Assembly: GCA_015489315.1 (NCBI GenBank)
Contig: WFZZ01000085.1
Location: 1 to 32,707, forward strand
Direction of reading: 5' to 3'
Source: Deltaproteobacteria bacterium
Lineage (GTDB): Bacteria > Desulfobacterota > Dissulfuribacteria > Dissulfuribacterales > QOAL01
Length of the DNA stretch: 32,707 nt
In this document: in pieces, positions 2,537-8,459 of the stretch
How positions within the stretch are numbered: the first letter of the stretch is position 1
How the letters are laid out: each line of letters begins with the position of its first letter
Notes under the pieces: model-generated
Database searches by the model: none
Seen by the model: only the letters and a program-made list of their open reading frames with translations
Told to the model about the DNA's origin: nothing
Translations under genes and position numbers: made by a program

Positions 2537-3046
2537 ATGAAGAGAAAAGAAATGAAAAGAATGGAAGAAAAGAAGGTAATTCCAAGGATCAGAAAAGGTG
2601 TTTTGGGTGTTGTTCTGTCAGGTCTTTTAATGGCAGGTTCTGGAGCAGTTTTGGCAAAAGATTCAAACTCAACCTCTAAAATTCCTGATGTCATAAACAT
2701 AAATACTCAAAAGGCCTGTCCTGATCTGGAAGGAATAGGCAAGGATAAAAAGAGTGTTGAAGGATTTACGCATAAGGCACACATTCAGTTTTTGCAAAAG
2801 GAAGAAAAAAATGCCTTTGTATGCGCCACTTGCCATAAAGGAGCAAAGACAGAAGAAGAGATTATTAAAAGTGATAAGTGCAAGAGGTTGTCAGATGAAT
2901 TTAAGGAAGTGGGTGGTGCATCCCATTTCATGAAGTACTTCCATGACAGTTGCAAAAACTGCCATAAAAGCCGCAAAAAAGAGGGCAAGGCCACAGGACC
3001 AGTTTCCTGTAAGGGTTGCCATGCTAGAAAAGGAGGTGAAAAATAA
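2537..3046 (+). CDS. periplasmic multiheme (three CXXCH) class III-like cytochrome c
   Basis: 169 aa; signal peptide; CATCH, CKNCH and CKGCH motifs plus candidate distal His ligands (FTHKAH, SHFMKYFH). Strong RBS aaaggagg at about 2520-2528. Confidence 0.85.
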   Translation: MKRKEMKRMEEKKVIPRIRKGVLGVVLSGLLMAGSGAVLAKDSNSTSKIPDVININTQKACPDLEGIGKDKKSVEGFTHKAHIQFLQKEEKNAFVCATCHKGAKTEEEIIKSDKCKRLSDEFKEVGGASHFMKYFHDSCKNCHKSRKKEGKATGPVSCKGCHARKGGEK

Positions 3047-3531
3047 TGAAAAGGTCTAAAAAGACAAGTTTAGGATATATTACGCTTTTTGTTTCACTTT
3101 TTCTTGTTTGCCTTTTATCTGCAAACGTCTTTGCTGGAAGCAAGGTAAGGGGTGAGGTGTCTGATGTAATTAATGATAAGGCAACTTGTGAGAAAAATGA
3201 GGATTTAAAGGCAAAAGGCCTTTGTGAGATTTTGTATCAAGGTGAAAAGGGCCCTTCTTCCATAATAATTTTAGGAAAAAAGGAGATATCCCTAGAAGAA
3301 GGAGACCCAATCATCCTTAAATCAAAAAAGAAGGGAAAGACAACTGCCAAACTGATTGGTGAAGTAGGGAAAATTGATAAAGAAAAGATCAAGGAGTGCA
3401 AGGAAATAATAATATGGAAGACAAAAGAAAGGCTTTTTTTCATTGAGCCTTCAAAGGAGTTTACCCTTAATAAAGGTGATATTGTCCGTATGAAGGTAAA
3501 AAGGAAGGTTCAAAAGGTGGAAGGTTGTTAA
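3046..3531 (+). CDS. hypothetical secreted protein, likely co-transcribed with the cytochrome
   Basis: 161 aa; signal-peptide-like N-terminus; start overlaps the last base of the cytochrome gene; no recognised family. Confidence 0.65.
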   Translation: MKRSKKTSLGYITLFVSLFLVCLLSANVFAGSKVRGEVSDVINDKATCEKNEDLKAKGLCEILYQGEKGPSSIIILGKKEISLEEGDPIILKSKKKGKTTAKLIGEVGKIDKEKIKECKEIIIWKTKERLFFIEPSKEFTLNKGDIVRMKVKRKVQKVEGC

Positions 3532-3568
3532 AAAAGGGCTGGTATAAAGTGGCTAGCAGGTGTCTTTT

Positions 3569-3594
3569 GGGGGCTTTATGCCCCCTTTTTTATT
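3569..3594 (+). terminator. Rho-independent terminator after the cytochrome operon
   Basis: GGGGGC-TTTAT-GCCCCC perfect 6-bp stem followed by TTTTTTATTT. Confidence 0.85.
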
Positions 3595-4774
3595 TCTCTT
3601 TAATGGAAATCGAGCCTATAAAGGCTCTTATGGTCCTAATTGAAGGAGAAAATCCGCTTTTTTCGTATTTTGGAAGTTCCCTTTGAAGGATTTCAATCTG
3701 TTTCTTTAGACCCTTTACAGTCTGGTCGCAATCCCATAAATAATCAGGAACATCCTTTAGGACCTTTAATTTAACTTCAAGGTCAATGATATATTTTTGA
3801 TCATGGCTTAGACCCTGATAAAAGTATTTTAGTTCATCCTTATTAACGCACAATAAGTCCTTTGTAAGCCTTCCAATGAAGCCAACTCCTGTCCCGTTTT
3901 TAAATGAAATCTTTTCAAATAGGATGGAAAAATCATTTAGTCCCGGTCTTGGAGGAAGGATGTCCACAGGGGCCCTTAAATAAATTCTGTCTCCTTTTAA
4001 TGCCCGTTTGAGCCTTTCAACTGCAATTTTTACAGTTAAATCCCCTTCCCTAAGCCACATATCAAGAAATTCCTTTAAGGGGATTACTCTTAAAATGATT
4101 GTTTTATCCATTGAAAAAAATAGACAGTGGGAAGGGCAGGGGGTCTTCCCCTTTTTGCCATGAGAAGAAAATGATACCCTCGGAACCACTCTCTTAATAA
4201 GCCTTTTCCCAATAATTTTTTCATTTAATGATATTTCATCTGGGAAAATGGGTAGGGTGCTCAAATGAATTGGATTTAGCTTTTTCCCCCTTATTTCATA
4301 TACCCTTAAAATCCTTTTGGTCGGACAGCAAAGGGGCTCATCCTTTTTATGTTCAATAAGGCCAAGATAGATACGGCCATGATTCTGCAAGGAAAGGTAC
4401 CTGACTTTGACTCTGTCACCAAGGTCCTTATAGCAAAGAGGTTTCCAGATATTTTTCTCATTTTTTAAAATGAAAAGCCTCTTATAAACCCCACTGCCCC
4501 CAAGATTATAAAAAAGGACCACAGCCGCTATCTTTTGACCACCCCAATCTGTTATCTCATAGACTGGTTCAATTCCTGCAATTATCCCTTTTTCTTTAAG
4601 CTCCCAGTCCTTTAACGTTATTGTACCATCCTTTATTTCCTTTAATGGTAAGGTAAGGCTTTTAAAGGGAAAAGCCTCTGAAAAGGAAGATGATGTTAAC
4701 AGGAAAAAATCATTTAAAACAATAAAAATCATAGAGAAAAGAAGAAATCTTAAGAGTCGTCCATTCTCTTTCAT
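3590..4774 (-). CDS. hypothetical exported protein
   Basis: 394 aa with N-terminal hydrophobic segment and secreted-type character; no family recognised. Confidence 0.65.
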   Translation of the reverse strand: MKENGRLLRFLLFSMIFIVLNDFFLLTSSSFSEAFPFKSLTLPLKEIKDGTITLKDWELKEKGIIAGIEPVYEITDWGGQKIAAVVLFYNLGGSGVYKRLFILKNEKNIWKPLCYKDLGDRVKVRYLSLQNHGRIYLGLIEHKKDEPLCCPTKRILRVYEIRGKKLNPIHLSTLPIFPDEISLNEKIIGKRLIKRVVPRVSFSSHGKKGKTPCPSHCLFFSMDKTIILRVIPLKEFLDMWLREGDLTVKIAVERLKRALKGDRIYLRAPVDILPPRPGLNDFSILFEKISFKNGTGVGFIGRLTKDLLCVNKDELKYFYQGLSHDQKYIIDLEVKLKVLKDVPDYLWDCDQTVKGLKKQIEILQRELPKYEKSGFSPSIRTIRAFIGSISIKEK

Positions 4775-6015: not shown

Positions 6016-7167
6016 ATGTCTTCAAACAATGTGGTTTTTCTTAAAGTATTGGAATGGTTTGATCAGACAGGCAATGAAGTATGTCACAGGCTTCCACAGG
6101 AAGGGTCAGGGGAATTCAAGCTTGGGGCTCAGGCAATAGTAAGGCAAAATCAGGCAGCCGTTTTCTATTCCCAAGGGGTTGCATGTGATGCCCTGGGGCC
6201 TGGAAGGCACACCATCTCTACCTTAAATATTCCCATTCTCACAAAGCTTCTGTCACTCCCTTGGGGATTTACTAGCCCAATTAGGGCAGAGATATATTTC
6301 GTAAATTTAAAAATATTTACCAATCTTAAATGGGGGACAAGAGATCCTGTGGCCTTTAGGGACAAGGAACTAGGGCTCATAAGGCTTAGAGCCCATGGGA
6401 TATTCAACATTCAAATTAGCCAGCCTGTACTTTTTGTAAATTCTCTAGTAGGGACAAGGCCCTCCTTTTGGATAGAAGAACTTGAAGACTTCTTAAGTCA
6501 GGTAATTGTCTCAAGATTAAATGATTACCTTGGTGAGAACCTTGAAACACTGTTTGATCTGCCTCAAAATTATGCTGAATTTGCAAGTGGACTTTCAAAA
6601 GAATTAACTAAGGACTTTTCATCCTATGGGATTTCCTTAAAGGACCTTTTTATAAATGCAATAACTCCTCCAGCAGATGTCCAAAGTGCAATAGATGACA
6701 GAACAAGACTTGAACTTCTTGGAAATAACCTTAAGGGCCTTATGAAAATGAAGGCTGCAATGGCCCTTGAAAATGCATCTCAAGGTGAGGGACTGGCCCA
6801 GGGAGGTATAGGCATGGGCCTTGGTCTCATGATTCCAGGACTTTTGAGCTCTACTAATCTTTTTGATAAAGGTTTATCGGGAACAAGTGTTGAAAATTTG
6901 CCGCCCTCAAAGGAAAAGGGGCAAAGATGCCCTGAATGTGGTTTTTTTATGGACCCTGCTTCCAGGTTTTGCCCAAACTGTGGCCATCAGATACTGGTGT
7001 TTAGAAGATGTTCAAATTGTGGAAAGAATCTCACTCCCAAGGCTAAATTTTGCCCTTATTGCGGAACACCGGCTGGTAGCGAACCACTTCCAAAAATATG
7101 CCCTCATTGCAATACAAAAAATCTGCCACAGGCCAGATTTTGCAATAACTGCGGAAAACGCCTATAG
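6016..7167 (+). CDS. SPFH/Band-7 domain protein with three C-terminal zinc ribbons
   Basis: 383 aa; N-terminal SPFH-like region (GSGEFKLGAQAIVRQNQAAVFYSQGVACDALGPGRHTISTLNIPIL), six C-terminal CXXC half-motifs (CPEC, CPNC, CSNC, CPYC, CPHC, CNNC). RBS cggagga upstream. Confidence 0.9.
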   Translation: MSSNNVVFLKVLEWFDQTGNEVCHRLPQEGSGEFKLGAQAIVRQNQAAVFYSQGVACDALGPGRHTISTLNIPILTKLLSLPWGFTSPIRAEIYFVNLKIFTNLKWGTRDPVAFRDKELGLIRLRAHGIFNIQISQPVLFVNSLVGTRPSFWIEELEDFLSQVIVSRLNDYLGENLETLFDLPQNYAEFASGLSKELTKDFSSYGISLKDLFINAITPPADVQSAIDDRTRLELLGNNLKGLMKMKAAMALENASQGEGLAQGGIGMGLGLMIPGLLSSTNLFDKGLSGTSVENLPPSKEKGQRCPECGFFMDPASRFCPNCGHQILVFRRCSNCGKNLTPKAKFCPYCGTPAGSEPLPKICPHCNTKNLPQARFCNNCGKRL

Positions 7168-7175
7168 ACAGTGAT

Positions 7176-8459
7176 ATGGAAAGTGCCAGGGGATTTTGCC
7201 CTCAGTGTGGTGGAAAAGTCCAATTAGAAGTATGCGACCCATTACTTAAGTGTTCCTTTTGAAAAACAAATCTCTATATAAGGCCAAAGGATGGCATCTT
7301 TTGTTATTTTTTGGACCAGGCTGAAGAAAATATAAATTTAAATGGGGAAAGTATATATATCCCTTACTGGCGTATTAAAGGAATTCGTTTGAGGATATTA
7401 AATGACGGTTCCATAAAAAAAGATAGAATAGACGCCTCTCTTCCGGCCATAAAAGGATTTCTAGGCCTTCAATCCCTCGGGCTTTCCACAGAACTTTCAA
7501 AAATGCAATTAAATATCCAGCCCTTAAACTTTAAGAAATACCTTTTGCCCGCAAAAAAGGCCTTGAAGATAATTGATTCTCGCATTGAAAATGTCCTTAT
7601 GGAACACCCCGCATCAAGTGTTATTTTTGGAGAAAAAGTAACCCTTATTCTGGCTCCTTTTAGAATGGTCAGAAAGGATACAGAAATTTTCTTAAGACCT
7701 ATGTGGACAAGGTATGGAAGTTATACAAAGCTAAAAAATGACCATGAAATCCATGCCATTTTAAGGGAACTTAAGAAGATTTCCAAGAATGATGAAAAAG
7801 GCAATGGAATAGATTTTATTCCATTAATCTGTCCTGAATGTGGAAGTGATATTCCAGCCCTTTCAAAGGCCTATGCTCTTTTTTGTAAGTCATGCAAAAG
7901 ACTCTGGGCTGTTGGCAATGGAAAAATGTTGCATCAAAAGGCAAGGATCATGGCCCATGAAGTAGAAAGAAATATGCTCTTTTTACCCTTTTACCATTTT
8001 TGTCTGAAAATTACTGGGCTTCCATTTAACAACAGGCTCTCCTTTTTAAAGGCCGTTTTCCCCTATAAGGAATTTCCTGATGACCTTTCAAAGGAGCCAG
8101 TCCAGATAGTTATTCCAGCATTTAGTCTTGGTCCATCACTTTATCTTCGCCTTGCACAAAGGATGAGCAGCTCTGACTTATCATTTTTAAGAAAAAATAG
8201 AGAAATAACCTCATCAATGATCAGGACCCACTGCATCAACGTAAGCCTTGAGGCTGCCTTTCAATATCTTCCTTTTTTGTTGTTATCAATTTTTAAGAGA
8301 CGTAAGAAATTGAAAAACATCCTTTTAAGAACCGAGATTTCCATTACAGATATCAATCTCTTTTTTATTGGTTTTAAAGAGACAGGAAGGGATTTGATTG
8401 AAAAAAAGACAGGACAGGCCATACAAATGGCTTCCATAAGATATGGCCTGAATCTTTAG
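7176..8459 (+). CDS. zinc-ribbon protein with an in-frame TGA (7260-7262), putative selenocysteine protein
   Basis: ATG at 7176 is in frame with the track ORF 7311-8459 (135 nt apart). Translation: MESARGFCPQCGGKVQLEVCDPLLKCSF(TGA)KTNLYIRPKDGIFCYFLDQAEENINLNGESIYIPYWRIKGIRL... Second zinc ribbon CPECGS...CKSCKRL further on. The TTG start in the track at 7311 would remove the conserved-looking N-terminal ribbon. Confidence 0.7.
7285..7303 (+). promoter_or_regulatory. candidate bacterial SECIS hairpin downstream of in-frame TGA
   Basis: 5'-CAAAGGAU-GGC-AUCUUUUG-3': continuous 8-bp stem (one G-U) with a GGC loop; loop begins 30 nt after the TGA. Folded by eye only. Confidence 0.5.

Follow-up and report, generated by a model that had tools for sequence, protein, structure and literature searches.

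An in-frame TGA at an invariant zinc-ribbon cysteine codon of an SPFH-operon gene in a Desulfobacterota genome is probably an ordinary stop

The gene for a two-zinc-ribbon protein at positions 7176–8459 (forward strand) of the window, the 32,707-nucleotide stretch of contig WFZZ01000085.1 analysed here, is interrupted once, by a TGA at codon 29 (7260–7262, forward strand) in place of the fourth cysteine of ribbon 1. We infer that this TGA is not recoded and is most probably an ordinary stop codon, produced either by a recent nonsense mutation or by a sequence or assembly error. The likelihoods attached here to the three readings of the codon (a stop, a selenoprotein and a short product) are judgements and not computed values.

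Direct reading and translation of the window from the ATG at 7176 give MESARGFCPQCGGKVQLEVCDPLLKCSF-TGA-KTNLYIRPKDG..., with the TGA as the sole stop ahead of the TAG at 8457–8459 and with 398 open codons beyond it, as the original prediction had described; the product would have 427 residues if the TGA were read through. It had also been foreseen that an automatic caller would start at the TTG at 7311–7313 (forward strand), and a bacterial ORF caller indeed places the gene start there, with the loss of ribbon 1. The gene directly upstream (6016–7167, forward strand) ends 8 nt before the ATG and encodes an SPFH (Band_7_1) protein with C-terminal zinc ribbons (PF13421, E = 5.9e-56; DZR, E = 7e-20), which agrees with the described placement of the ribbon gene right after an SPFH/zinc-ribbon gene. 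Since the two-ribbon gene is immediately preceded by an SPFH gene in 75 of the 79 homologous loci, it is very likely that the two genes form a real operon.

The TGA falls where the second CXXC of the CxxC...CxxC ribbon needs its last cysteine, as had been proposed, and homology to the aligned proteins extends to either side of the codon. The ribbon 1 residues C8, C11, C26 and C29 and the ribbon 2 residues C219, C222, C237 and C240 are invariant in an alignment of 22 sequences, into which the protein's own sequence was entered with cysteine at the TGA, and the same eight zinc-type cysteines are still invariant in a broader alignment (n = 39). Among the homologous loci of GTDB species genomes the codon-29 residue is cysteine in 79 of 79, bearing out the earlier expectation for this column, and neither selenocysteine nor TGA occurs there in any of them. 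In a survey of the phylum, for which 396 Desulfobacterota genomes were drawn and in which the ribbon gene was present in 107, the other 106 gene-bearing genomes contained no TGA in the gene, leaving the window genome alone. In the closest relative, G005 (94% amino-acid identity; public record JALXCD010000048.1, with a contig coverage of 2.06 given in its name), codon 29 is TGT and no stop is present, and the 48 nt after codon 29 are identical between the two genomes. Apart from the TGA the frame is free of lesions, as the original prediction had noted.

The position of the TGA at a zinc cysteine is notable and is the main evidence for selenocysteine. In this Cys-rich gene about 12–14% of the single-base changes that make a TGA land on one of the eight zinc-type cysteine codons, and 3–4% of those that make any stop in the ribbon gene give a TGA at a zinc cysteine, a figure that counts against an ordinary stop. 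This evidence is weakened because a scan would select just such cases.

In the comparison with G005, the dN/dS of the ribbon gene is 0.32, against 0.11 for its operon partner; most neighbours have values of 0.00–0.12, and one large AAA gene has 0.27. When changes were polarised against six genus members, seven derived residues fell on the TGA lineage and eight on that of G005. The ribbon gene has therefore been under equal constraint in the two lineages, and the TGA is recent, or an error, or recoded. Since the TGA lineage has not gained more derived residues than that of its relative, the gene cannot be an old pseudogene, a possibility that was rejected (26 non-synonymous changes on both branches, against about 39 expected on one neutral branch, with the derived residues even); the original prediction had named further decay as the mark of a pseudogene, and no extra decay is seen. 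The same evenness speaks against an ordinary stop, as does the finding that, in sampled stretches set against G005, amounting to about 102 kb and 90 genes, this TGA is the sole clear mid-gene nonsense codon of this genome in a gene of more than 150 codons, so that stops are rare in the assembly. The ribbon gene is, on the other hand, patchily distributed, being missing from one of nine genus members and, at the level of the class, from 25 of 49 genomes. A mid-gene frame change was observed in two homologues, both from MAGs (L078, match 3001–4243, genome G020; L089, match 633–1789, genome G040). Given these damaged copies and the patchy occurrence, loss or error in the ribbon gene is not unusual.

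The genome is able to make selenocysteine. The original prediction had tied its reading to selA, selB, selC and selD, and all four are accounted for: a tRNA-Sec scores 74.4 bits and is also called by ARAGORN, and SelA, SelB and SelD are encoded, SelD with an in-frame TGA of its own. Three further genes of known Sec families in the same genome (two Fdh and one FlpD) contain a TGA. With this machinery, SelB could bring Sec-tRNA to codon 29 and yield a CxxC...CxxU zinc ribbon, with a hairpin at 7285–7303 serving as the SECIS element. The invariant cysteine column and a frame that is intact and constrained in both lineages are in keeping with such a reading, but it is unlikely when the RNA downstream of the TGA is compared with that of genuine Sec genes. 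The reference set comprised 31 Sec-TGA sites of the SelD, Fdh and FlpD families from genomes of the genus and family, four of them from this genome. A G-loop hairpin with its loop starting 16–23 nt after the TGA is present in 31/31 of these sites, whereas none was found at 16–24 nt after the candidate TGA; the base after the TGA is C or G in all 31 and A in the candidate. The FlpD (L151), SelD (L055) and two FdhA (L159 and L168) sites show clear G-loop hairpins 16–23 nt past the TGA and constitute a usable SECIS reference set for the genus.

The candidate's only good G-loop hairpin, CAAAGGAU-GGC-AUCUUUUG, has 8 bp, a spacing of 30 nt from the TGA and a stability of -4.2 kcal/mol, is rich in AU and GU pairs, and occupies positions 7285–7303 (forward strand; CAAAGGAT/GGC/ATCTTTTG). 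The general bacterial SECIS model (4–16 bp, a G in the first two loop bases, a spacing of 16–37 nt and an MFE <= -7.5), outside which a subset of accepted elements falls (PMC13188914), is matched by this hairpin in its geometry, including the loop G and the spacing, but not in the energy rule of -7.5. The hairpin is overlapped and outcompeted by the strongest downstream hairpin (CCAAAGGATGGCA/TCTTT/TGTTATTTTTTGG, 7284–7314, forward strand), which has 13 bp and a UCUUU loop without G and, at -12.3 kcal/mol, is far more stable in the TGA species. In the Cys species G005 the spacing-30 hairpin is identical and is part of the favoured fold, and hairpins that score as well are found after the codon-29 cysteine in 14% of Cys homologues; in the genes of the window, 6.7% of codons overall are followed by one. 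The strong fold downstream (-15.4 kcal/mol over 55 nt), which about 6% of background codons equal, was considered as a SECIS element in its own right and rejected on account of its UCUUU loop without G. No SECIS match was obtained in the window with Rfam at the gathering score, and a permissive search gave nothing for the candidate; two genuine Fdh sites themselves reached only 25.3 and 23.4 bits for SECIS_3, where the cut-off is 63, and Rfam thus lacks the power to settle the question. Set beside the SECIS hairpins that the genus has in its genuine Sec genes, the RNA after the candidate TGA looks different; the signal is poor, and the evidence on a SECIS element leans negative. At codon 46 the TTG of this genome corresponds to CTA in G005, with both differences synonymous; the TTG version strengthens the downstream hairpin and creates a TTG start that is absent from the Cys species.

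The original assignment of the TGA to selenocysteine also runs against the lack of any Sec homologue among the 79 homologues and the 106 other gene-bearing genomes, and against the TGT and shared 48 nt of the 94% identical relative; moreover, at a structural zinc ligand it is hard to see what Sec would add in redox terms. It is quite improbable that this species alone has a selenoprotein with Sec in place of one of the four structural cysteine ligands of a zinc ribbon in an SPFH-operon protein, decoded through an unusually long-spaced SECIS element that chance had already provided in the Cys ancestor. Were it true, a Cys-to-Sec switch would have been captured inside a single genus at a structural zinc position, from which the origin of SECIS elements could be studied.

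Translation from the TTG at 7311 or from a later start, with codons 1–28 as a small leader ORF, would give a functional protein without ribbon 1. The gene body is constrained, and the TTG is CTA in G005, so the possible start is not common to the relative; however, no good Shine–Dalgarno sequence precedes 7311 (the closest AAGGA lies at a distance of about 18 nt), codons 1–45 are conserved between the window genome (G000) and G005 like the rest of the gene, with one amino-acid change besides the stop, and ribbon 1 is invariant across homologues. This short product is very unlikely.

The ordinary stop is thus the favoured explanation. A change of one base, TGT to TGA, would have struck an accessory gene of an SPFH operon, the one for the two-zinc-ribbon protein, either as a recent nonsense mutation, possibly confined to the sampled strain, or as an error in the consensus of a draft genome that was probably assembled from a metagenome. 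If the stop is real, the ribosome would halt after 28 residues and the product would be lost, or downstream re-initiation may give a shorter protein lacking ribbon 1. This explanation agrees with the TGT and unchanged flank of G005, the uniform cysteine of the homologues, the single occurrence of the TGA among 107 genomes, the patchy and twice-broken gene, the lack of a native-like SECIS element, the A after the TGA and the higher dN/dS than in the operon partner. A TGA at an invariant cysteine in a Sec-using genome is insufficient for assigning a selenoprotein; this also takes a signal after the TGA like those of the genome's genuine Sec genes, and a second species.

The protein itself, the second of a conserved SPFH operon, has no match above cut-off in Pfam or NCBIfam; its AlphaFold model is confident (mean pLDDT 87.7), and a PDB fold search with this model returned no match reaching E 0.001, small domains such as 2hf1 aligning weakly.

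Among known systems, the SelD, two FdhA and FlpD genes of the same genome resemble the candidate in that their frames are open except for a TGA at a Cys/Sec position, but their TGA is common across the genus and is followed by a G-loop hairpin 16–23 nt downstream, and the candidate has neither feature. The original prediction knew of no description of Sec in a zinc ribbon, yet a zinc-ribbon selenoprotein has been published: `hypothetical protein DG' is among the new Sec candidates of the deep-Sep paper (PMC12013277), and, to judge from its name, NCBIfam model NF049953, `zinc ribbon-containing (seleno)protein DG' (172 positions, cut-off 130 bits), presumably represents the same protein, so the candidate would not be the first zinc-ribbon selenoprotein. 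Like the candidate, DG is a zinc-ribbon protein of Desulfobacterota with Cys homologues and a TGA proposed to encode Sec, but its homologues in other species include some with TGA and a SECIS-like structure has been reported for it, whereas the candidate has no TGA homologue. The two are different proteins: NF049953 did not match the candidate (P0001) at E<=1, and no NF049953 members were found in the window genome. For the operon, the YdjGHI/PspA operon of B. subtilis provides an analogy only, in which an SPFH protein, YdjI, is likewise encoded beside partner proteins and, together with YdjG and YdjH, connects PspA with the membrane (PMC8581546); the conserved gene order here suggests that the ribbon protein may be a cytoplasmic partner of its SPFH protein.
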